Part shown: piece after piece, positions 19,690 through 37,266 of the stretch
How positions within the stretch are numbered: the first letter of the stretch is position 1
Layout: each line of letters begins with the position of its first letter
Virus record (IMG/VR): IMGVR_UViG_3300036884_000299
Span: 1 to 64,000 of that record
DNA from: a virus
DNA: 64,000 nt
Direction: 5' to 3' (one strand)
Translations under genes and position numbers: made by a program
Notes under the pieces: model-generated
Database searches by the model: none
Seen by the model: only the letters and a program-made list of their open reading frames with translations
Told to the model about the DNA's origin: nothing

Positions 19690-19718
19690 AGTATACTACA
19701 ACTGAAGATAAATGTCAA
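19690..19718 (-). promoter_or_regulatory. Sigma-70-type promoter
   Basis: Minus strand TTGACA (19718-19713), 17-nt spacer, TATACT (19695-19690), 17 nt before the start of the small membrane protein at 19673. It lies at the very end of the SNSSSSSF operon. Confidence 0.8.
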
Positions 19719-20239
19719 CCTAATAGAAATTCTTTGAATTTTGAATATTTCTCATTATAAGTTTCTTTTATTTCAGAAAGTATTTTAGTTTCATTAAGCC
19801 CTGTTTTTTCGTATACATATTGTATATATTCACTAGGATATAATTTCTTTCTTCTTTTATTTATTTCTTTTACTTTTATAAAAACGTCCTCATGGGTATA
19901 TTGTGGAAATTTTTTACTTAAGTATCTATCAATATCTTTATTAGATGCTACTTCAAATTGACAAATAGGGCAAAATTCCTCGGAAATGCATGAACCAATC
20001 ATATCTACTGCATTACGAATTTCAGATGAATATTCATCAGGATCACCATTATTACCAGTATTATCATAGATAATATATCCTTCTAATGCTTCATCTTCAC
20101 ATATAATATGCTCATTTTGGCATTGTATGAAACCAAAATCTTGGGGGGAAGCATCCATACCCGCTTCTGAAGCTCCACATATATCACAAACAAAGCTTGT
20201 AGTGGAACTATTTGAAACAAAACCTTTACGTATCTTCAT
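19715..20239 (-). CDS. SNSSSSSF-tag protein A, Cys-rich
   Basis: 174 residues. The N-terminus MKIRKGFVSNSSTTSFVCD is the tag shared by four genes in this operon. It is followed by a Cys/His cluster (CDICG near 18-22, CQNEHIIC near 39-46, CPIC near 90-93), suggesting zinc sites, and then a charged helical C-terminus. SD GGAGGA before ATG 20239. The same tag occurs on otherwise unrelated phage and bacterial hypotheticals in my memory; its role is unknown to me. It is the last gene of the operon led by the radical SAM gene. Confidence 0.6.
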   Translation of the reverse strand: MKIRKGFVSNSSTTSFVCDICGASEAGMDASPQDFGFIQCQNEHIICEDEALEGYIIYDNTGNNGDPDEYSSEIRNAVDMIGSCISEEFCPICQFEVASNKDIDRYLSKKFPQYTHEDVFIKVKEINKRRKKLYPSEYIQYVYEKTGLNETKILSEIKETYNEKYSKFKEFLLG

Positions 20240-20424
20240 AAGTCCTCCAATTTAAGTGTAAATTTATACCCACATTCCCCACATTCAATCTCCTCTGATT
20301 CATATCTTATAAAGCCTTTACCATAGTATCTATCATAATAATTAGGATTAGATGTAGAATAAAATTCAATATTAAGGGGAGGAGTTTCATATACATATTT
20401 ACAGGAAGGGCATTGATATTTCAT
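20236..20424 (-). CDS. Small zinc-ribbon protein
   Basis: 62 residues from ATG 20424 (MKYQCPSC). CPSC near residues 5-8 and CGEC near 47-50 give a four-cysteine zinc ribbon around a Tyr-rich insert. The upstream ATG at 20454 lacks a ribosome site, whereas TGGGGGTAAT precedes 20424. It overlaps gene A by ATGA. It belongs to the SNSSSSSF operon but has no tag itself. Confidence 0.55.
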   Translation of the reverse strand: MKYQCPSCKYVYETPPLNIEFYSTSNPNYYDRYYGKGFIRYESEEIECGECGYKFTLKLEDL

Positions 20425-20425
20425 A

Positions 20426-20806
20426 TTACCCCCAATGCTGCCTTTTGATAGCAATTCCTTCTAAAAATTCTTGCACAGGCCATGGAATAGAATTGCTAAA
20501 AGTAGAATCCACAATAATAGCAGGTTTATCAAATTGACCCTTATCTAAATATTTTATTTCCTCATCATAATAGTCATGATTCATACCTTCATAGAATCCC
20601 TTTATTTGATTTAGAAATTCTTGTCCACTTGACCTTTCATAGATTTCACAAATATCATCAACAATAAATTCTTCTTTATCAATAAGAGAAACAGCCTTTA
20701 ATACATTTTCAATTACTTCTCGTATCAATGAAGCTGAATATTTTGTTCCATCTAAAATAAAGGAGGTAGTTGAGGAATTTGATATAAAACCTAATCTAAT
20801 TTTCAT
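20426..20806 (-). CDS. SNSSSSSF-tag protein B
   Basis: 126 residues starting MKIRLGFISNSSTTSFILD. After the tag the body is acidic and helical, with no resemblance to proteins A, C or D. ATG 20806 overlaps the stop of gene C (ATGA), with GGAGAG as SD. That the short N-terminus is kept while the bodies differ is the striking point. Confidence 0.6.
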   Translation of the reverse strand: MKIRLGFISNSSTTSFILDGTKYSASLIREVIENVLKAVSLIDKEEFIVDDICEIYERSSGQEFLNQIKGFYEGMNHDYYDEEIKYLDKGQFDKPAIIVDSTFSNSIPWPVQEFLEGIAIKRQHWG

Positions 20807-21303
20807 CCATTTCTCTCCGCACCAATAACTACTTTACAATCTGTCAATATACCTGTTTCTTCTTTGAAAAGATTGATAATAGATTGCTGTCGTTCAGAAT
20901 AAAAAGATTCTTTTTTGGCGACTTCGTAGTTAAAGTTACCTGTTCCATCCATTTCATTCTCTTCATAAATAAAAGGAGGGCCATCACCTTCATCATTATG
21001 AATTTCTACAATAGCTATTCTCTTATTCCAATAATTATTAAGGCTCTGTGGGACTAATAGTTCAGTATCATTTCCCCCACAAAGAATTCTATTGTCTGCT
21101 TTCATTTCATAAAAAGTATCAAATACGCTAATAATACTATTCCAATCTTCACTCTGATATGTGTTATAATCCTGTGTTCCATCTATTATGATTTTATTCT
21201 TTTTAATATAGGACTTAAAAGAATTTTCGTCCTTAATTATTCCATATCCAATAATAAAAGAACTTGATCTTGAATTTGATACAAATCCTTCCCTACTCTT
21301 CAT
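20803..21303 (-). CDS. SNSSSSSF-tag protein C
   Basis: 166 residues from ATG 21303 (MKSREGFVSNSRSSSFIIG), preceded by GAGGAGGA. An upstream in-frame ATG at 21357 would place 18 unrelated residues before the tag and has no better ribosome site. The tag has one Arg in the Ser run. The body is acidic alpha/beta with 'IAIVEIHNDEGDGPPF'. It overlaps gene D by 11 nt. Confidence 0.6.
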   Translation of the reverse strand: MKSREGFVSNSRSSSFIIGYGIIKDENSFKSYIKKNKIIIDGTQDYNTYQSEDWNSIISVFDTFYEMKADNRILCGGNDTELLVPQSLNNYWNKRIAIVEIHNDEGDGPPFIYEENEMDGTGNFNYEVAKKESFYSERQQSIINLFKEETGILTDCKVVIGAERNG

Positions 21304-21652
21304 AGTATTCCTCCTCAAATATACCTGCCTCTTGAGATGTCCAATTGTCAACTTCAATAGATTTAATTGTATATCCTTTTTTTGCTAAGGAAGAGAAATC
21401 ATCATCAATATTCATATCATATTCACAGGAATACTTAGCTACTTTAAGTAGATAACAATCCTCTGGTAATCCCCTAGTCTTGATTATTTCTTTAGTTTCA
21501 GGCTCCAACTCAAAAAAATCTATACCCTCACTCAAACCATGACCCTCAAACCAAATATCAGTATCATCAATATTTTCTATTGTAACAGATTTACAAACAA
21601 TAATAAATGAAGATGATGAACTGTTAGATACAAAGCCTTCTCTAATTTTCAT
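21293..21652 (-). CDS. SNSSSSSF-tag protein D
   Basis: 119 residues from ATG 21652 (MKIREGFVSNSSSSSFIIV), with AGGGGGA as ribosome site. The longer reading from 21709 is rejected because it puts the tag internally. This is the canonical form of the tag. The body is acidic and ends in a Glu/Tyr-rich tail. First of the tagged proteins downstream of the radical SAM gene. Confidence 0.6.
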   Translation of the reverse strand: MKIREGFVSNSSSSSFIIVCKSVTIENIDDTDIWFEGHGLSEGIDFFELEPETKEIIKTRGLPEDCYLLKVAKYSCEYDMNIDDDFSSLAKKGYTIKSIEVDNWTSQEAGIFEEEYYEE

Positions 21653-30568: not shown

Positions 30569-31036
30569 ATGACACAAATGAATGTAGAGGATTTTGAGAA
30601 GACCTATGCCGATCCTGTGCCTGTGAATGGAGCTGTATTAGTAGAGGTAGTAGAGAAAGACACAACACGAACTACTAAAGGCGGTATCATAGTTCAGGAA
30701 GATGCTATGAGCACTGGTATCGTAGTCAACCCTTATCTTGTAGTGTTGGCTTTAGCAGAGGACATTGATGAAGCTGTAAGGGGTAAAGTGGAAGTAGGGG
30801 ATATCATACAAATTTCTACTAATAGGGTGAATGCATTCTTAGGGAAAGATATGGTTAGATTAGGACTTGTGGCTAGTGAGGATATCTCTGCTATCCATAA
30901 GCACCTTGTAGGAACTAAAATAAAAATAACTAAGAAGGAAGCAAAGCCTAAGCAAGCTATTCTAGGTGGTGAGGGCAGAGCACAGCCTAAACAAAGTATT
31001 ATAGGTGGTGATGGTAAAATAATTATTGCCAACTAA
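30569..31036 (+). CDS. GroES-like co-chaperonin (gp31-type)
   Basis: 155 residues. 'DPVPVNGAVLVEVVEKDTTRTTKGGIIVQEDA' (about 15-47) is the GroES N-terminal strand pattern, with the mobile-loop region at about 30-40; 'VEVGDIIQIS' and 'KDMVRLGLVASEDISAI' follow. Phages use such proteins to replace host GroES when folding capsid or other large proteins. It is longer than GroES because of a C-terminal repeat of 'KQxIxGGxGR/K' (about 127-150), which is unusual. SD GGGGAGGA. Moderately sure. Confidence 0.55.
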   Translation: MTQMNVEDFEKTYADPVPVNGAVLVEVVEKDTTRTTKGGIIVQEDAMSTGIVVNPYLVVLALAEDIDEAVRGKVEVGDIIQISTNRVNAFLGKDMVRLGLVASEDISAIHKHLVGTKIKITKKEAKPKQAILGGEGRAQPKQSIIGGDGKIIIAN

Positions 31037-33853: not shown

Positions 33854-34046
33854 ATTTATTTTTGATAAGATTATACGTAATAAAATAAAGAAGGATTATA
33901 CATTAGTCCAGAATGAGAATTTAGTTTATACTAGTCTTGACATAAAACACAGAGTATGCTATGATAGTTTTGGTAAGGAAGAACTCTATATAAATACCAG
34001 AATAATCACTGAGTCACGATTCTGGAAGGATACTTCAATATGGTAA
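33843..34046 (+). CDS. Small hypothetical protein, cassette member 4
   Basis: 67 residues from ATG 33843 (METEFIFDK), which has AGGAAC upstream; the reading from 33795 adds a hydrophobic stretch but no ribosome site. Overlaps the next ATG. Unknown. Confidence 0.4.
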   Translation: METEFIFDKIIRNKIKKDYTLVQNENLVYTSLDIKHRVCYDSFGKEELYINTRIITESRFWKDTSIW

Positions 34047-34264
34047 TATTTACTAGATTAGTAAGAGCATCATTATTTTCTAGTACTGCTATGTGGGGGC
34101 ACTTTAGTGATGAATATAGTATTCATGATTATTTTTGGGCACAGAATCATGCTAATCATAGCAGGTCATTTCCTATAAAAGTAGAACTGGCTACAGGGAA
34201 AGGTTTCAAAACTCTAAAGGACTCTCTTTGTAAAGATTCTGAGGCTGGGGGTATGGGGTATTGA
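34040..34264 (+). CDS. Small hypothetical protein, cassette member 5
   Basis: 74 residues, ATG inside the stop of the previous gene (ATGGTAA). Aromatic and His-rich (MWGHFSDEYSIHDYFWAQNHANH). Its stop lies within the promoter for the AAA+/HslV pair. Unknown. Confidence 0.4.
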   Translation: MVIFTRLVRASLFSSTAMWGHFSDEYSIHDYFWAQNHANHSRSFPIKVELATGKGFKTLKDSLCKDSEAGGMGY

Positions 34265-34289
34265 CATTTTTTAAGAAGTTTAGTATACT
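34261..34289 (+). promoter_or_regulatory. Sigma-70-type promoter for the AAA+/HslV operon
   Basis: TTGACA (34261-34266), 17-nt spacer, TATACT (34284-34289), 18 nt before ATG 34308. An AAAGGA ribosome site lies between. Confidence 0.8.
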
Positions 34290-34307
34290 ATAATAAAGGA
34301 AGCACAA

Positions 34308-35525
34308 ATGGCGAATAATGATCCTGGCTACTATGTATTGAATTTGTATGGCAAACTTATTCAAAAAGAATTCCCTGGTGTCACTGACTTTGGCATCGCC
34401 TTTCTGGCAGATTCCGAAGATTATGCGGAGGTAATTGAACCTATTGAAGAGGATGTGGGGGTACAACTTAATAAAGATGGAATGTATCCTATTCGTTCGG
34501 GTGTTGAAACGGAAAGCCCCTCTATAACTATCCATGCCCATTTTGATTACAATGATAATCTTCTTGATTCCATTATCCTTTCTGAAGTAAATCGTTGTTT
34601 TATTAAGGGGATGAAGTTTTTAAAAATAATCACTCCTTTATTTGTGGGGGACTCACATGATATTATCCTCGCTCCTAATGATATAATCAAAGATATAATT
34701 TTAGCAGCTAAACAGCTTAAAGACAATAAAATAAACACCGCTATCCATGCACCTCTGATTGATTTGCCTTTAGATATGCTTAAAAAAGATATCCTAGACT
34801 TTCTTATTAATGAGGATTTTGCCAAGTTCTGTAAGCAGTACTCTATCAAACAGAAAAGAGGATTTATTTTTTCCGGTCCCCCTGGGAATGGCAAGACCCT
34901 TTCTTTAGCTTGGTTAAAGTCCCAAGCTATACAAAATAAAATTGAATTTAGAGCGTATAAATCTGCACGAGACTTTTTAGAGAATCAAGAGGGAGATAAT
35001 CAAAATAAGCGAATCCTTGTATTCGAGGAGTTTGATACTTATGTACAAGAACGAAAACACAATGAAGATGATGATAGGGAACAAACCAATTCTAATAATG
35101 TTTTGGGAACCCTATTACAAATCTTAGATGGCATTGAAGATGTATCTAATGCTGTTTTTATCCTTACTACGAACTTTATCTCTACATTTGATTCTGCCTT
35201 GATGCGCCCCGGACGTATTGATAAGGTTATTACCTTTGAGCCTCCTACAGAAGAGAGTCAAAGAAAATTCTTACAAACATATCTTTCCGAGTATACTAAT
35301 CATGGGATGATTTTGATATACTTGAAAAAGAAGAATGCTGCCATCTCTTATGCTATGTTGAAGGCTATTGTAGATAATATTCGTATTCAGGAGTTCTGGC
35401 TACAGCAGGAAAAGATAGAGGATACTCATATTGGGGATGAGGCTATCATGAAAATTATTAATTCTGTACTTGACAATGCCAATAGGGGAAAAGAAGTGAA
35501 GAATACTGAGGAGTCTATACTATGA
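34308..35525 (+). CDS. AAA+ ATPase, likely unfoldase partner of the HslV-like peptidase
   Basis: 405 residues. An N-terminal domain of about 170 residues that I do not recognise is followed by one AAA module: Walker A GPPGNGKT (about 190-197), Walker B ILVFEEFD (about 236-243, Glu in place of the usual first Asp), sensor-1 ILTTNF and the second region of homology with ALMRPGRIDK. This classic-AAA look (Cdc48/FtsH-like) differs from HslU, and no HslU I-domain is visible. It ends in ...ESIL; HslU also ends in -IL, which docks into HslV. It overlaps hslV by ATGA. A partnership is inferred from gene overlap. Confidence 0.7.
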   Translation: MANNDPGYYVLNLYGKLIQKEFPGVTDFGIAFLADSEDYAEVIEPIEEDVGVQLNKDGMYPIRSGVETESPSITIHAHFDYNDNLLDSIILSEVNRCFIKGMKFLKIITPLFVGDSHDIILAPNDIIKDIILAAKQLKDNKINTAIHAPLIDLPLDMLKKDILDFLINEDFAKFCKQYSIKQKRGFIFSGPPGNGKTLSLAWLKSQAIQNKIEFRAYKSARDFLENQEGDNQNKRILVFEEFDTYVQERKHNEDDDREQTNSNNVLGTLLQILDGIEDVSNAVFILTTNFISTFDSALMRPGRIDKVITFEPPTEESQRKFLQTYLSEYTNHGMILIYLKKKNAAISYAMLKAIVDNIRIQEFWLQQEKIEDTHIGDEAIMKIINSVLDNANRGKEVKNTEESIL

Positions 35526-36073
35526 TAAAATTACATGGAACTACAATACTAGCAGTACGCTATAATGGGCGTACCACTATGGCTGCTGATGGACAGGCTA
35601 CTGCTGGAGATATAGTGTTAAAATCTAATGTACGTAAAATCAGGAAGTTCCTTGATGGAAAAATTATAGTAGGCTTTGCTGGTAGTGTAGCTGACGCTAC
35701 CTCACTATTAGATTTCTTTGAAAAGAAAATAAATACTACTAAAAACATGGAACGTGCTGCTGTAGCTTTAGCTAAAGAATGGAGGACAAATAGAATATTT
35801 GGTAAACTAGAAGCAGAATTGCTTTTAGCAGATAAGGATAATATTCTTCTTCTTTCCGGATCAGGAGATGTCATTGAAGCTGAAAATAATAGTCTTGCTA
35901 TTGGCTCTGGAGGACAATATGCTCTAGCTGCTTCAAAAGCATTAATGTATGCTTATAATGCTTTTGATATTCCAGAAAATGCTAGTCTAATTGCACGTAA
36001 ATCTTTAGAAATAGCCTCTGAAATCTGTATTTATACTAATAATAATATTATTGTGGAGGAAGTAATTGGCTAA
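35522..36073 (+). CDS. hslV: HslV/ClpQ-type threonine peptidase
   Basis: 183 residues, matching bacterial HslV along its whole length. A six-residue propeptide ending in LHG precedes TT; with Thr7 as mature Thr1, Asp23 and Lys39 fall at mature positions 17 and 33, the catalytic residues. GFAGSVADA, AKEWRTNR, KLEAELLLADKD, IGSGGQYALAA and ICIYTNNN are all kept. The LHGTTI start resembles ClpQ of Gram-positive bacteria (FHATTI) more than enterobacterial HslV. The enzyme should form a dodecameric chamber gated by an ATPase. It is probably active, as no key residue is missing. Confidence 0.9.
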   Translation: MIKLHGTTILAVRYNGRTTMAADGQATAGDIVLKSNVRKIRKFLDGKIIVGFAGSVADATSLLDFFEKKINTTKNMERAAVALAKEWRTNRIFGKLEAELLLADKDNILLLSGSGDVIEAENNSLAIGSGGQYALAASKALMYAYNAFDIPENASLIARKSLEIASEICIYTNNNIIVEEVIG

Positions 36074-36176
36074 GAAAACAGAGATTAAGTTGAATGATTG
36101 GCTTGTCATTAAATATAAAGTAAAACCAAACTGGATACAAAAAATTATACTCAATTGGTTTTATAGGAATGCATAA
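36066..36176 (+). CDS. Tiny basic hypothetical protein
   Basis: 36 residues from TTG 36066 with GGAGGA 5 nt upstream, overlapping the end of hslV and the ATG of the phosphoesterase gene (TAATG). Basic with Trp (NDWLVIKYKVKPNWIQK). Could be a short coupling or accessory peptide. Start codon and reality are moderately supported. Confidence 0.45.
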   Translation: MAKKTEIKLNDWLVIKYKVKPNWIQKIILNWFYRNA

Positions 36177-37192: not shown

Positions 37193-37266
37193 GCCATTTT
37201 AGCTCATCTGGTTAGAGCGCAGCACCTGTAATGCTGATGTGCCGGGTTCAAGTCCTGGAAATGGCT
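37193..37266 (+). tRNA. tRNA-Thr (anticodon UGU)
   Basis: Cloverleaf visible: acceptor GCCATTT / AAATGGC; D-stem GCTC/GAGC; anticodon stem CAGCA/TGCTG around loop CCTGTAA (anticodon TGT); T-arm CCGGG, TTCAAGT, CCTGG. The CCA end is not encoded (discriminator T then GCT), so host CCA-adding enzyme is required. ACA-type Thr codons are common in these Thr-rich virion genes, which would explain carrying it. Confidence 0.93.

Follow-up and report, generated by a model that had tools for sequence, protein, structure and literature searches.

On the + strand of the window, the 64,000-nt stretch of DNA analysed here, a gene for an AAA ATPase is followed by hslV (Table 1). The window is part of an 86,672-bp IMG/VR virus record filed as linear, whose source is, judged from its genes, a tailed phage. 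A terminase-large-subunit-like gene at window positions 53247-55346 matches Rhizobium phages of some 154-208 kb with 24.7% identity and, because of the size of these terminase relatives, the 86.7-kb record is probably incomplete. Other families on the record include a phage primase, SbcC-like, SbcD-like and exonuclease-like proteins, RtcB and an RNA ligase. The AAA-hslV pair sits between a 5'-3' exonuclease-like gene and the SbcD-like gene, a position that, as far as neighbours can indicate, favours a DNA-metabolism setting rather than virion maturation; from the reading frames, the operon seems to continue past hslV via a 36-aa ORF into the SbcD-like gene, directly after which stands a tRNA-Thr (TGT) gene (37193-37266). 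A match to a GroES-like co-chaperonin (30569-31036; phrog_3188, 27.8 bits) lies 3.3 kb upstream of the pair and may represent a second proteostasis gene of the phage. Elsewhere in the window, on the - strand at 19715-21357, three adjacent small proteins open with a near-identical motif (around GFVSNSSTTSF) and apparently form a paralogous family.

Table 1. Features of the AAA-hslV locus (window coordinates).
Feature	Position	Strand	Remarks
Sigma-70-like promoter match TTGACA-17-TATACT	34261..34289	+	11/12 consensus; 18 nt before AAA start codon; consensus match only
Shine-Dalgarno-like AAAGGAAG of AAA gene	34295..34302	+	Read from sequence
AAA ATPase, 405 aa	34308..35525	+	Residues about 27-147, N-domain; about 148-330, classic AAA core; 331-393, small domain; 394-405, C-terminal tail with the end EESIL
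Proposed HslV-docking tail (codons of the final seven AAA residues, NTEESIL)	35502..35522	+	Sequence comparison
GAGGAG, Shine-Dalgarno-like site of hslV	35508..35513	+	Same bases are codons Glu401-Glu402 of AAA tail; read from sequence
hslV, 183 aa	35522..36073	+	6-residue propeptide MIKLHG before catalytic Thr, codon 35540-35542
Possible 36-aa ORF, TTG start	36066..36176	+	Overlaps hslV end and SbcD-like gene start; read from sequence

The two genes overlap by ATGA, the last codon (CTA) and stop (TGA) of the AAA gene overlapping the ATG of hslV, exactly where the preliminary description had placed hslV across the AAA stop. The same description credited the operon with a strong promoter of its own; a near-consensus match does stand ahead of the AAA gene, but such matches do not prove function. 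Four promoter-like sites of at least 11/12 occur on the + strand of the window, where first-order Markov sequences contain 2.05 on average. Near-perfect TTGACA-17-TATNNT sites recur at 33937 and 34261 (+) and at 19718, 22038, 23006, 25845, 47453, 48695, 50431 and 62521 (-), several of them directly upstream of genes, and are probably host-sigma-70-type promoters of the phage.

The product of the second gene (P0002) is, on its profile scores, a complete true HslV: it exceeds both NCBIfam cut-offs (PRK05456, 223.8 bits, cut-off 137; TIGR03692, 218.7 bits, cut-off 157.75), and its AlphaFold model (mean pLDDT 92.7) has the N-terminal nucleophile fold and superimposes on Thermotoga maritima HslV (1m4y_A; Z 28.0, rmsd 1.4, 170 aligned), also the nearest solved structure (phmmer E 1.2e-53). 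Thr1, Asp17, Lys33 and the GSGG segment, which the preliminary description had reported as kept, are all in place together with Ser124, and the catalytic Thr1 (residue 7), Asp17, Lys33 and Ser124 are identical to those of 80/80 cellular HslVs. Gly precedes the catalytic Thr, as in 22 of the 78 cellular HslVs (of 80) read at this position. In the HslV tree the phage protein occupies a branch of 1.96 outside every cellular clade sampled, a placement that is unsure because this is the longest branch. In view of the single genome that carries the pair, hslV might be taken for a stray host capture or an assembly artefact that serves the phage in no way, and all 5 inspected of 13 HslV matches in the named-phage collection did prove to be bacterial hslV-hslU stretches; with so long a branch outside the cellular clades, an intact frame with conserved catalytic residues and a location embedded among phage genes, we regard such an origin as very unlikely.

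The first gene encodes what is by its motifs a classic AAA ATPase (P0001), not HslU: PF00004 matches with E=1.2e-14, and the protein carries Walker A (GPPGNGKT), a Walker B-type EEFD and RPGR. HslU is absent among its NCBIfam matches, and no TIGR00390 (HslU) match was found anywhere in the 86.7-kb record, even at E<=1. The N-domain (about residues 27-147), modelled with low to middling confidence, received no name in a Pfam search, so that the earlier picture of a classic-AAA partner with an N-terminal domain of no recognised family can be upheld. In sequence the core comes closest to the second rings of Afg2/p97 and to proteasomal ATPases; by fold it is nearest to the proteasomal Rpt/p97/Mpa motors (top Z 18.4, rmsd 4.5, 240 aligned, the comparison covering mainly residues 137-401). 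With PAN, Rpt, Mpa and p97 it shares a classic AAA core followed by a C-terminal tail, yet it falls far below the cut-offs for PAN (51.7 vs 500 bits) and the pup-type proteasomal ATPase (52.7 vs 504.75 bits), and it lacks an HbYX tail. We identified no canonical pore-loop aromatic in the AAA protein.

The best Foldseek match to the whole chain is Bcs1, at an rmsd of 13.1 and therefore without establishing a shared N-domain; in Pfam, the window AAA gave no Bcs1 N-domain match, a difference from Bcs1/YjoB. Bcs1 is a translocase of folded protein, and its Walker-B-type motif resembles the EEFD of the window AAA. Profiles of IetA, the ATPase of the IetAS anti-phage system, also match the core (2.1e-14). 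IetA is likewise encoded in a pair with a protease, IetS, which is subtilisin-like, whereas the partner here is HslV and the IetA score stays below the NF042959 cut-off (37.9 vs 510 bits). Among the viral contigs, an AAA beside a subtilisin-like protease in an IetAS-like arrangement was seen at L018:3-3333, in a record filed as phage that resembles mobile bacterial DNA; an AAA ATPase of Tunturiibacter phage Tunturi_5 (L019:2407-3636) is annotated 'major head protein', apparently a mislabel.

These affinities raise the alternative that the AAA protein acts by itself as a Bcs1/IetA-like chaperone or remodeller, next to an HslV working as a peptidase without coupling to it, a situation that has been proposed for partnerless phage proteasome homologues. 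Besides the Bcs1 and IetA matches, a relative of the AAA that has no hslV next to it (see below) would accord with this, and for new proteasome homologues, of which PPH and AAH are phage members, PMC8665760 states that no co-occurring AAA+ partners were found. It leaves the ends of the AAA proteins (YIL and IL) and the gene overlap without explanation, and HslV without HslU is only weakly active according to PMC6429459; we consider uncoupled action unlikely.

Coupling between the two proteins is suggested by the C-terminal tail of the AAA. As described in PMC6429459, HslU activates HslV through its C-terminus, which enters pockets between HslV subunits; peptides of the last 8-12 HslU residues can replace HslU partly or fully towards small substrates, in the L. 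major system five of the last six tail residues are essential, and tails of HslU from distant species activate a given HslV. We compiled HslU tails from 80 cellular hslV loci, counting the 63 with a complete HslU ORF; omitted were the 17 whose flank contained no full HslU ORF, 12 of them from Bacteroidota and part of the others cut by contig ends. The 63 complete tails follow the consensus D-L-S-x-[YF]-I-L, ending in IL (57), VL (5) or II (1), with Y or F third from last in all 63, D at -7 in 60 and S at -5 in 54. The AAA of the relative, L020, ends KDNSNYIL (D-N-S-N-Y-I-L), an HslU-type tail, although it was picked up through its core and not its tail. The window AAA, ending N-T-E-E-S-I-L, keeps I-L alone of the HslU motif and is without the aromatic, Ser and Leu borne by HslU peptides. 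When the tails of viral AAA relatives in the matches listed were compared (79 distinct ones, after removal of 3'-truncated ORFs and repeated tails), L020 was the only one with an IL ending. Moreover, if ORFs of >=100 aa are counted, the AAA is the sole IL-ending protein among 101 in the window record, and the L020 AAA the sole one among 81 in its own record (G002), where composition predicts 0.6-0.8% for IL and about 4e-6 for DxSx[YF]IL (the latter for G002). Divergence at E-E of the window tail has an ordinary reason, since these codons double as the ribosome-binding site of hslV; the loss of the aromatic is not accounted for by that overlap.

Changes are also present on the HslV side. The HslU tail is reported to lodge at HslV residues 54, 57 and 114 (PMC6429459). 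In this pocket the phage HslV has Thr54, found in 0/80 cellular HslVs (Phe 62, Ile 14, Met 4), Leu57, present in 13/80, and the ordinary Glu114 (71/80). Five of its six departures from positions conserved at >=90% fall in residues 49-90 (Fisher p=0.010 for a region picked post hoc), compared with one of five in the HslU-paired phage HslV of L007. Small and post hoc as this result is, it fits an altered ATPase interface. One might instead suppose that the phage HslV joins host HslU and redirects or boosts the host protease, the AAA having another job and merely sharing the operon. Lys28, Lys33 and Arg35 are indeed retained, as are 47 of the 53 positions that are highly conserved, distant HslU tails can activate a given HslV, and phage HslVs with canonical HslU exist; all the same we deem host HslU an improbable partner, given Thr54 and the clustered changes on the 49-90 face, the ATGA overlap, and an AAA family that itself bears an HslU-type tail.

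Scans with HslV, the AAA or their motifs covered viral contigs (eight scans) and genome contigs (two). Close-relative scans with single proteins found none. Among the matches listed for viral contigs (80 AAA loci kept, 225 confirmed), L020 is the only full-length relative of the AAA, with 46% identity overall, 52/133 aligned residues identical in the first 147 and 95/183 in the AAA core. A second AAA motif scan returned L020 again from viral contigs and nothing from genome contigs, the latter a weak result because the AAA patterns used were short; among named phages and plasmids, no match covered 80% of the AAA. The 77.9-kb record of L020 belongs to a related phage, which shares the terminase-like gene at 34%, a nuclease and others. 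It holds no proteasome-family gene and its AAA is not adjacent to hslV, so that the pairing is known from one genome only, although this record, too, may be incomplete. The search of phage genomes for adjacent hslV and AAA genes that the preliminary description had proposed yielded no further pair: of 105 viral loci with a proteasome-like ORF, none had such an AAA within the stretch of DNA covered around it.

Its view that complete hslV genes are rarely described in phages fares better, as true HslVs are rare on viral contigs, where at least three others were found among the matches listed (L007, L350 and L349). L007 (6001-7933) and L350 (1-1537) are phage contigs, both from metagenome series 3300035698, with hslV followed by canonical HslU; L349 was set aside as a phage hslV, being a phage-like stretch that adjoins ordinary hslVU. 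The L350 pair adjoins genes resembling tail sheath/tube. With an HslV model of which P0002 was part, L007 scores 246.0 bits and the other proteasome-like viral ORFs <=34.4. The window AAA gave no match in the L007 record. PHROG 4339, filed as unknown function, strongly matches phage HslU (378.6 bits).

Set against known systems, the pair resembles bacterial HslVU (ClpQY) in its HslV, a true one as judged from NCBIfam cut-offs, from its fold and from its catalytic residues, and in AAA tails that end like those of HslU (IL in the window, DNSNYIL in L020), and differs in having a non-HslU ATPase. With the phage hslV-hslU pairs (L007, L350; PHROG 1040 and 4339) it shares a true HslV on a phage contig, whereas their partners are ordinary HslU, that of L007 scoring 578.3 bits (cut-off 362.45) and ending DEDLSKYIL, that of L350 ending NEDLSRYIL. 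The PPH, AAH and CPH phage homologues covered in PMC8665760 are likewise proteasome-superfamily peptidases but of other families, PPH having about 140 aa as opposed to the 183 aa and HslV equivalog score of the window protein; in Table 1 of that paper, as far as its excerpt goes, the HslV row carries no evident phage mark, and the paper names HslU as the sole known AAA+ interactor of HslV. For a Salmonella jumbo phage, two HslV-annotated ORFs without HslU are reported in PMC7823757. The present pair thus differs from PPH, phage hslVU and IetAS-like pairs in family, motor and protease, respectively, and in the literature we recognised no report of HslV with a non-HslU ATPase or of an AAA-hslV pair in a phage.

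Taken together, we assign a probability of roughly 0.6 to the two genes encoding a phage-specific ATP-dependent compartmental protease, HslVU-like with a swapped ATPase. HslV would remove its own 6-residue propeptide to yield a double-ring peptidase whose nucleophiles are Thr residues; rings of the AAA would sit on its ends, their C-terminal tails (...IL) entering the pockets between HslV subunits and thereby opening and activating it; the N-domain would select substrates, and the AAA ring would unfold and thread them. The substrates, the least certain step, would probably be host or phage proteins during takeover. Counting for coupling is the ATGA overlap, with the GAGGAG of hslV inside the last AAA codons; the intact HslV, the missing HslU on the record, the HslU-type tail of the L020 AAA, the Ile-Leu end of both AAAs, and Thr54 with the changes clustered at HslV 49-90 point the same way, and the modelled AAA core, with a fold like proteasomal Rpt/p97/Mpa, would suit a swapped motor. 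Counting against are the window tail without aromatic, Ser and Leu, the pairing in one genome and the relative without hslV, the Walker B region and fold that are also Bcs1-like, the ordinary Glu114, the pore-loop aromatic not identified, and the two other phages with ordinary hslV-hslU. The protease reading is strengthened relative to the preliminary description and plausible, short of proof.

More tentatively, and as something rather less likely than not, we suggest that a phage classic-AAA family independently gained an HslU docking tail, which would have turned it into a second activator of HslV besides HslU. It might commandeer host HslV in phages such as the L020 relative; in the window phage, which encodes an HslV itself, tail and pocket would have changed together, so that the machine would no longer need or mix with host HslU. 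Should the swapped-ATPase reading hold, a proteasome-clade motor on a natural HslV would exemplify motor swapping directly and open the docking rules to testing, and the phage would be seen to carry its own targeted-degradation machine.
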